64,000 bases of DNA from assembly GCF_016862555.1 (NCBI RefSeq), contig NZ_BONE01000043.1, positions 1 through 64,000 on the forward strand. The letters are read 5' to 3'. Source of the DNA: Asanoa siamensis (GTDB lineage Bacteria > Actinomycetota > Actinomycetes > Mycobacteriales > Micromonosporaceae). The notes beneath the pieces were generated by a model. It ran no database searches, had not been told where the DNA came from, and saw only the letters and a list, made by a program, of their open reading frames with translations. Numbering within the stretch: position 1 is the first letter of the stretch; each line of letters starts with the position of its first letter. Shown here in pieces: positions 25,383-28,135 of the stretch. Made by a program: the position numbers and the translations under genes.

Positions 25383-26300
25383 ATGGACGTCCGCAAGCTC
25401 GAGATCTTCACCGCCGTCGCCGCGGAACGCAGCTTCACCCGCGCCGCCGAGCGGCTGCGTACCGCCCAGTCCGGGGTCTCGACCGCCATCCGCGCGCTCG
25501 AGCGCGACCTCGGTGTCACCCTGCTCGACCGCACCACGCAGCGGGTCGAGCTGACCGAGGCCGGCCGGGCGCTGCTGCCCGAGGCGGAGCGGATCCTCGC
25601 GGCGGTCGCCGACGCCCGCGCCACGGTCAGCCAGGTCGGCCAGGGGCTGCGCGGCCGGCTCCGGCTCGGCATCCTCTACGGCATCACCCCGCCCCGCGTA
25701 CGCCTCGCGTTGGCGACGTTCCAGGCGGAGCTGCCCGGTGTCGAGATGTGGCTGACCGTGCCCGGGCCGCGCGGCTCGCTGGACCACCTCGACCATCTCC
25801 GCGAGGGCGCCCTCGACCTGGCCGTGATGATCGCGCTCGGCCCGCTGCCCGGCATCGACCAGCACCTGCTGGCCTCCGAGGAGGTGGTGCTCGCCTGCGC
25901 GCCCGACCACCCGCTGGCCGATCGCGGCGAGGTCGACCCGGCCGAGGTCGCCGACGACATGTTCATCGAGTTCCCGCCCGGCTGGGGCGTCCGGATGGCC
26001 GCCGACCAGGTGTTCGGGGCCGCGGGCATCGCGCGCCGGAGCACGATCCAGATCTACGACCTGTCGACCATTCTCGACCTCGTACGCCTGCGGCTCGGGG
26101 TGGCGTTCGTCCCGCGATCGGTCGCCGCCCAGGTCGACGACCTGCGGTCGCTGCGGATCCGTGGCGACCGGCCGACGTACCAGGTCGTCATCGCCCGCGT
26201 CCGGGACCGGCCGCTCGGGCCGATCCCGCGGCGCTTCCTGGAAGTCGTCAGTGCCAGGGACGGAGTTTCTCGGGGTTCCGCACCGCCCACAGGTGGGTGA
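25383..26300 (+). CDS. LysR family transcriptional regulator (divergent from MFS gene)
   Basis: A 305-residue full-length LysR protein: HTH at residues 1 to 60 (KLEIFTAVAAERSFTRAAERL, then AQSGVSTAIRALERDLGVTLLDR), a linker helix, and the two-lobed effector domain from about 90 (LRLGILYGITPPRVRLALATF) to 290. The effector is unknown. By family habit it represses itself and activates the divergent MFS gene through the box at 25355. Its last 53 bases overlap the 3' end of the convergent ECF41 sigma gene, and those final codons (VSARDGVSRGSAPPTGG) look like read-through beyond the conserved domain. Confidence 0.88.
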   Translation: MDVRKLEIFTAVAAERSFTRAAERLRTAQSGVSTAIRALERDLGVTLLDRTTQRVELTEAGRALLPEAERILAAVADARATVSQVGQGLRGRLRLGILYGITPPRVRLALATFQAELPGVEMWLTVPGPRGSLDHLDHLREGALDLAVMIALGPLPGIDQHLLASEEVVLACAPDHPLADRGEVDPAEVADDMFIEFPPGWGVRMAADQVFGAAGIARRSTIQIYDLSTILDLVRLRLGVAFVPRSVAAQVDDLRSLRIRGDRPTYQVVIARVRDRPLGPIPRRFLEVVSARDGVSRGSAPPTGG

Positions 26301-27123: not shown

Positions 27124-27166
27124 CGGTGTGCTCCCTCCGTCTCCCTGTCCGACGAGGCACCGCCAC

Positions 27167-27187
27167 GGAATGTGAGCCTCACATTCC
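27167..27187. promoter_or_regulatory. Palindrome carrying both -35 elements of divergent ECF41-type promoters
   Basis: GGAATGTGA and TCACATTCC are perfect 9-base arms around GCC. Each arm supplies TCACA in outward direction. On the minus strand TCACA is followed after 16 bases by CGTC (toward the sigma gene); on the plus strand TCACA is followed after 15 bases by CGTC at 27199-27202 (toward the SnoaL-like gene). Published ECF41 promoters have TGTCACA, about 16 bases, then CGTC, so both directions fit imperfectly but in step. Confidence 0.6.
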
Positions 27188-27211
27188 CGCGCCCCGGTCG
27201 TCGTACCGGGT

Positions 27212-27676
27212 ATGACCGATTTTCAGAGAATCGCCGACCGGGTCGAGATCGACGCGTTGCGCGCCGAGTACACGGACGCGGGCCTGATGCGCGACTACGA
27301 CCGCTTCGCCGGCCTGTTCACGCCGGACGCGGTGCTGCGGATCCCGGACGCGGACGTGACGCTCACCGGCCGCGACGAGATCCGCGCGGGGATCGAGCGG
27401 CTGCAAGGCTTTTGGGAGTTCTTCCTGCAACACACGCATGCGGGCGCGCTGACCGTGTCGGGTGACTCGGCTGCGGGGCGGGCGCACATGCACGAGTTGG
27501 GGCGGCTGCGCGACGGGACCTCCCACGTCAACTACGCGATCTATCACGACACCTATCGTCGTACGGGCGACGGGTGGCGCTTCGCGTCGCGGACGTACGA
27601 GGTCCGGTATCACGACGCGACGCCGCTGACGGGGACGCCCGGTCGGGCGTATCTGGCCTCCCGGGTGACCGCCTGA
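27212..27676 (+). CDS. SnoaL-like / NTF2-fold protein, likely ECF41 target
   Basis: A 154-residue NTF2-like protein: RVEIDALRAEYTDAGLMRDYDRFAGLFTPDAVLRI is the typical opening helix pair, and WRFASRTYEVRYHDATPL the closing strand of SnoaL_4-type relatives. These proteins are isomerases, dehydratases or ligand binders. It is divergent from the ECF41 sigma gene, whose own C-terminal domain has the same fold, and its start lies just 10 bases after a CGTC -10-like element, so its message would be nearly leaderless. A role as the sigma factor's partner in place of the usual one is inference from position. Confidence 0.78.
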   Translation: MTDFQRIADRVEIDALRAEYTDAGLMRDYDRFAGLFTPDAVLRIPDADVTLTGRDEIRAGIERLQGFWEFFLQHTHAGALTVSGDSAAGRAHMHELGRLRDGTSHVNYAIYHDTYRRTGDGWRFASRTYEVRYHDATPLTGTPGRAYLASRVTA

Positions 27677-27715
27677 GCGGCTATGGTGGTGCCGCCTCGT
27701 GTTGGGGGGTGCCGG

Positions 27716-28135
27716 TTGCGCCGACGGTCCTGGGTCGTGGTGGCGCTCGTGGTGCTGTCGTGCGCGGCCTGCGGCTCGACGGCGCCGACGGTGCTGGTCC
27801 ACGACGTCCGCGGCCGCGGTGACGACGCCTTGATCACGGGGTCGGTCGGGTACCTCGCCGACGCGGACTGCTTCGTGATCGAGTCAGCGGGCGTGCGCCA
27901 CGTGGCGGTGTGGCCACCGGACACAGAGGCCTGGGTCACCGGTACGGAGGTGGCCGGCGTCCGGGTCCCGGACCGTGAGCCCATCGCGATCGGCAGCCAG
28001 CTGACGGCCGGCGGCGGGTACACGAACCCGACGGCCAGCGGTGATCTGGATCTGCCCGAGGTGCCGGCGGAGTGCTTCGGTGGCGGGGGCGAGTTCGCGC
28101 TGATCCACGTGATCACCGCGGTGACGCCGGGCTGA
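27716..28135 (+). CDS. Small lipoprotein of unknown function
   Basis: About 139 residues starting at a TTG preceded by GGGGGGTG; an ATG at 27683 in the same frame lacks a ribosome site. LRRRSWVVVALVVLSCAAC is a lipoprotein signal peptide with lipobox SCAAC and the modified Cys right after. The mature part of about 120 residues is beta-rich (VLVHDVRGRGDDALITGSVGYL) with two Cys that could pair. I recognise no family. It follows the SnoaL-like gene by 39 bases and may be in the same transcript. Confidence 0.65.
   Translation: MRRRSWVVVALVVLSCAACGSTAPTVLVHDVRGRGDDALITGSVGYLADADCFVIESAGVRHVAVWPPDTEAWVTGTEVAGVRVPDREPIAIGSQLTAGGGYTNPTASGDLDLPEVPAECFGGGGEFALIHVITAVTPG

Follow-up and report, generated by a model that had tools for sequence, protein, structure and literature searches.

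A putative bidirectional promoter module with a palindromic -35 region between an ECF41-type sigma factor gene and a SnoaL-like gene in Asanoa siamensis

Within a window of 64,000 nucleotides (the whole stretch of Asanoa siamensis DNA that was analyzed), the interval between an ECF41 (SigJ-type) sigma factor gene and a divergent SnoaL-like gene is inferred to be a bidirectional output module of the sigma factor, which would serve both autoregulation and the expression of the SnoaL-like gene (probability about 0.85, including the predicted dependence on the sigma factor). Two putative outward promoters meet here in a palindrome (Table 1). The palindrome and short motifs alone are near chance level, so the case rests on comparison, and conservation among relatives provides what we regard as the decisive support for the predicted promoters; that conservation partly reflects shared descent. 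For the widespread ECF41 group of sigma factors, few of the signals are known. In many actinobacteria the module allows likely direct ECF41 targets to be predicted from sequence, namely the sigma factor gene itself and its exchangeable neighbor, joined in Asanoa by an FAD oxidoreductase gene at an unlinked site.

Table 1. Features of the putative promoter module, its flanking genes and a candidate unlinked target promoter
Feature	Position	Strand	Remarks
Palindrome, GGAATGTGAG-C-CTCACATTCC	27167..27187	strandless	21 bp; exact, 10-bp arms, 1-bp center
Predicted -35 of sigma factor gene promoter, GCTCACA	27171..27177	-	Window sequence; consensus of relatives CCTSACATTC
Predicted -10 of sigma factor gene promoter, CGTC	27151..27154	-	Spacer 16
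Predicted -35 of SnoaL-like gene promoter, CCTCACA	27177..27183	+	Window sequence
Predicted -10 of SnoaL-like gene promoter, CGTC	27199..27202	+	Spacer 15
ECF41 (SigJ-type) sigma factor, 291 aa	26248..27123	-	WIPEP linker; C-terminal SnoaL_2-like extension
SnoaL-like target gene, 154 aa (SnoaL_4)	27212..27676	+	PF13577, E 7.9e-19
Putative ECF41-type promoter before FAD oxidoreductase (locus L150)	contig C50:8920-8949	-	Second genome match of the strict single promoter

The interval between the sigma factor and SnoaL-like genes

The sigma factor matches the NCBIfam SigJ model NF007214 (320 bits; cut-off 271), the solved SigJ 5xe7 (E 2.7e-48), and the Pfam families r2 and r4_2; the match to SnoaL_2 (E 1.4e-4) is below the Pfam cut-off. 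The WIPEP linker is present in all six aligned sigma proteins, and differs by one conservative change from the WLPEP motif of ECF41 (Wecke et al., 2012; PMC3426412). The scanned neighbors of the sigma factor gene encode SnoaL_4, LysR, and MFS proteins and one protein without a Pfam match; there is no anti-sigma gene among these four. The absence of the usual ECF41 partner (COE), reported in the first-pass annotation of this DNA, holds for these scanned genes; the COE partner is not obligatory, as approximately 30% of ECF41 are without it (Wecke et al., 2012).

The outward TCACA cores that had been noted on both strands are present (27179-27183 on the forward and 27175-27171 on the reverse strand), each followed by CGTC at the spacing first reported, 16 bases toward the sigma factor gene and 15 toward the SnoaL-like gene, whereas the proposed 9+3+9 layout of the palindrome gives way to that in Table 1. 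The agreement claimed with the ECF41 form TGTCACA-n16-CGTC extends to TCACA, CGTC, and the n15/n16 spacers, but not to the first two letters of the -35, which are CC and GC instead of TG. Similarly, the proposal that one palindrome serves as a shared -35 stands insofar as comparison bears out two divergent ECF41-type promoters with the arms as -35s, but these do not form one element: the two seven-base -35s have only base 27177 in common, and many relatives have the same elements approximately 11 bp further apart. Comparison supports the assignment of each arm as the predicted -35 of its own outward promoter. The two CGTC -10s are separate, with 44 bp between them, and point away from each other. 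The SnoaL ATG (27212) closely follows its CGTC (by ~9–10 bases), so the SnoaL mRNA is probably leaderless. An RNA hairpin was rejected as a reading of the palindrome, which would not be transcribed because it lies upstream of both predicted starts.

The palindrome is a single copy in the 8.78-Mb genome (search at up to three mismatches). It was rejected as evidence by itself, as perfect arms of at least 10 with a loop of at most 3 occur at two places in the window and at 0–2 places in each of ten shuffled versions; for TCACA-n16-CGTC there are two matches in the window versus 0.77 expected. The strict single promoter (CCTSACA-n15/16-YGTCGKA) has two matches genome-wide (none in the reversed control), while CTSACA-n15/16-CGTCGKAC matches both window promoters and one unrelated, unexplained place on contig C67 (control, one match); the latter pattern also matches at the sigma locus in five of six Asanoa genomes. 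For six SigJ paralogues encoded in this genome (L033–L038), the sense strand of the 250 bp upstream of the aligned start showed no such promoter; one of them (L038) has a lone TGTGAC there.

Promoter pairs in relatives

The comparison used 88 upstream regions of ECF41/SigJ relatives with at least 55% identity to the sigma factor (duplicates L001, L002, L003, L005, and L006 were left out). A strict outward pair is present in 56 of the 88, versus a mean of 0.16 and a maximum of 2 in dinucleotide shuffles (100 rounds), and in 41/69 of the regions sampled class-wide. All but three of the strict pairs (53/56) have -35/-10 spacers of 16/16; the exceptions have a spacer of 15, on the target side in the window and L075 (the other 54 target-side spacers being 16) and on the sigma side in L024. 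Extra spacer peaks at 13 and 11 among all single matches resemble, by eye, overlaps of repeated GTC. Logos of the 53 pairs give GCCT(C/G)ACATTC and TCGTCG(T/G)AC for the target-side promoter and a closely similar form for the sigma-side one, with CCT(C/G)ACATTC as the -35 of the relatives.

The distance between the two -35s, taken between the outermost T's of their cores, ranges from 3 to 65 among the 56 loci (3–5 in 16, 7 in three, 12–18 in 33, and longer in four). This distance is lengthened by repeat expansions or by repeated -35-like units in L097, L081, and L084 and at the motif matches of G606 and G670. A separate central element was considered for the gap-15 class and found no clear support: the central 11 bp have 0.91 bits versus 0.98 and 0.74 in the promoter-spacer stretches, and their self-complementarity is 1.07 of 5 versus 1.77 in shuffles. 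The modes at 4 and 15 are no more than suggestive of helical phasing of the two -35s, as inheritance is inseparable from constraint; distances of 7, 9, 18, 22, and 29 do not fit such phasing.

Where the strict pair is absent (32 regions), one-letter promoter variants were seen by eye in five (L082, L093, L094, L099, and L103), and no sigma-side promoter was visible by eye in ten Streptomyces-like relatives (L137–L142 and L144–L147). In the latter clade (57–64% identity) the target-side -10 is present, and the -35 is changed to CCTTACCTTTC.

A motif-only search (CGACR-n16-TGTSA-n3..33-TSACA-n16-YGTCG), which used no protein information, gave matches at 27 places, spread over 25 of 394 genomes; 26 of these places adjoin an ECF41/SigJ gene, and 24 adjoin independently found sigma relatives (coordinates judged by eye), whereas the place in G413 is chance-like. 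The other two of the 26, L175 and L176, adjoin SigJ-family genes (51 and 49% identity) whose divergent gene encodes an NAD(P)H-binding protein, as is classical for COE partners (that of L175 also matches the Epimerase family), and L175 has the fused palindrome. The window was missed by this exact-16 pair pattern because of its target spacer of 15. Family f19 has matches in 141/341 genomes, with no reversed-control match among the entries listed. In 91 sequences compiled from the listed f19 matches and the motif-only matches (leaving out G549 and G413 as, by eye, chance-like matches in coding DNA, a second identical G612 copy, and repeats), the -35 distance is 13–16 in 75 and 3–4 in eight.

Divergent genes and targets away from the sigma gene

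A quickly built tree for 88 sigma proteins has 32 of its 85 inner branches open; on it, fused versus not fused requires at least nine changes over 56 labeled rows, which suggests that the fused form recurs. All six Asanoa genomes examined encode the sigma ortholog and have the fused pair, at distance 3 or 4. The divergent gene is SnoaL in five of them and a LUD-domain gene (PF02589, E 1.1e-14) in G072, which has neither a SnoaL ortholog nor a CTSACA-n15/16-CGTCGKAC match, its sigma gene having the fused pair with TTGTCG -10s. A DoxX_2 gene precedes SnoaL in four loci (L009, L065, L071, and L075), and L004 has a remnant of the same kind, by eye the apparent tail of a DoxX-like gene.

Mechanically picked first divergent ORFs were compiled for 79 loci (eight of the 88 have no called first ORF, and L099 was left out because the chosen frame looked wrong), and comprise SnoaL_4 (18), LUD (11), DUF6069 (9), DoxX_2 (8), CMD (8), and Flavodoxin_2 (6), among others; SnoaL is over-represented because it was itself the query for part of the sample. 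COE-type genes were also found as the divergent gene in relatives. The divergent gene therefore differs while the promoters persist, which indicates that the predicted promoter module is kept and its cargo gene is exchangeable. The first-pass annotation had proposed a coupling between the sigma factor and a target of the same fold as its C-terminal domain, and had suggested a survey of ECF41 loci for SnoaL-like partners. Of the 63 class-wide loci with a called ORF, just six have a SnoaL relative as their first divergent gene, and although both window proteins match SnoaL families, the best BLAST hit between them has E 1.4; a special SnoaL–SnoaL link is not supported by these comparisons.

The promoter was also found before genes distant from close sigma relatives. 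For SnoaL relatives without a sigma relative of at least 55% identity in the fetched locus (some of which have a more distant one), it is present within 200 bp upstream in 8/20 (shuffle control mean 0.13, maximum 1); for those with a sigma relative it is present in 14/26, and another gene intervenes in several of the rest. Duplicates (L001, L002, L003, L005, L006, and L011) and L070, which has no upstream sequence, were left out of these counts.

The oxidoreductase encoded on contig C50 has FAD_binding_4 and BBE domains, and shares 31–37% identity with the divergent gene products of L133, L126, and L148, the first two of which have the strict pair and the third of which does not. The promoter precedes five of the six Asanoa orthologs of this gene (spacer 16 in four, 17 in one); the motif was not found at the sixth, L160. 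The unlinked oxidoreductase gene is likely a second target of the sigma factor, unlike the single target transcript proposed for ECF41 (Wecke et al., 2012). In G072 (L161), a further outward TCACA-n16-CGTC lies approximately 130 bp upstream of the oxidoreductase gene and points away from it; there is no sigma start there in the fetched locus, the only match being one of 47% to a distant relative further off.

Proposed mechanism and alternative readings

The sigma factor with RNA polymerase would recognize two outward CCT(C/G)ACATTC-n16-TCGTCG(T/G)AC promoters whose -35s meet in the 21-bp palindrome. One promoter would drive the sigma factor gene, as positive autoregulation, and the other would transcribe the SnoaL-like gene, whose mRNA is probably leaderless. 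The geometry of the fused form suggests that two polymerases would not be bound at once, such that each initiation would go either to autoregulation or to output. Counted against this scheme are the target-side spacer of 15 in the window and the G at the first consensus C of the sigma-side -35, either of which could weaken the window's promoters. The 32 of 88 regions that lack a strict pair, the ten relatives with no visible sigma-side promoter, and the oxidoreductase ortholog L160 also count against it.

ECF41 sigma factors are described as being controlled through their C-terminal extension. The ECF41 promoter (TGTCACA -35, 16 ± 1 spacer, CGTC -10) often occurs before both genes of divergent sigma/COE loci (Wecke et al., 2012). 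The Asanoa module is similar to these systems in the C-terminal extension, W(L/I)PEP linker, 16 ± 1 spacer, and CGTC before the sigma and partner genes, but differs from those described there in having CCT(C/G)ACA as the -35, in the meeting of the -35s in a palindrome, and in the partner, which is SnoaL here and LUD, DoxX, DUF6069, CMD, flavodoxin-like, or other proteins in relatives. In Escherichia coli, symmetrical DNA has been proposed to drive divergent transcription from bidirectional promoters that share a -10, with starts within or either side of it, and competition between polymerases is seen there only at elevated activity (Warman et al., 2026; PMC12825309). The module shares with these the symmetrical DNA, divergent transcription, and possible polymerase competition; unlike the shared -10 type, it is the -35s that meet, and the -10s are separate. 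Divergent ECF41 promoters are already known, whereas the fused palindrome may, provisionally, be new: the main text of Wecke et al. (2012) mentions no palindrome or inverted repeat, and no palindromic ECF41 -35 was found among the literature titles and abstract openings listed.

The palindrome is perfect and lies between divergent genes, where operators of dimeric regulators are usually found, and a LysR-type gene is nearby; on this reading a repressor or activator would control both genes and the promoter-like pieces would be incidental. We consider this quite improbable. The spacing of the arms varies among relatives while each keeps its 16 bases to its own -10, and this combination of variable -35/-35 distance and near-fixed -35/-10 spacers argues against a fixed operator, which was rejected; moreover, conservation in the central 11 bp of the gap-15 class does not clearly exceed that of the promoter spacers, self-complementarity there is below that of shuffles, and the promoter faces SnoaL relatives that have no close sigma gene. 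Somewhat less unlikely, but still unlikely, is that the window has a working sigma-dependent promoter on one side only, with a weak or relic arm on the other. The target spacer of 15 and the imperfect sigma-side -35 are consistent with this, as is the existence of a clade without a visible sigma-side promoter; against it, the full form occurs on both sides in 53 pairs, and the target-side spacer is 16 in the other Asanoa loci. Least probable of all, and in our judgment very improbable, is that the SnoaL product acts as a feedback partner or decoy for the SnoaL-like domain of the sigma factor: the shared SnoaL family matches favor it, but the two proteins have no significant sequence similarity, and the divergent gene more often belongs to another family, including the LUD gene in one Asanoa genome.

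Beyond the bidirectional output module itself, the fused promoter might act as a one-at-a-time divider, in which two holoenzymes could not share the palindrome, DNA geometry alone would fix how initiations are split between feedback and output, the bias would depend on base 27177 and the 15/16 spacers, and a form that arose repeatedly would allow many small genes to be plugged in. We put this forward tentatively, as doubtful. Natural variants of the -35/-35 distance (3, 4, 7, 15, and 26) make back-to-back competition and the division between feedback and output directly testable.

With regard to the flanking genes, the convergent LysR gene (25383-26300, forward strand) and the sigma factor gene have 53 bp in common at their 3' ends (26248-26300). 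A lipoprotein-like gene without a Pfam match (27683-28135) begins 6 bp after SnoaL, and its relatives (55–60% identity) follow SnoaL in the Asanoa loci L063 and L004.
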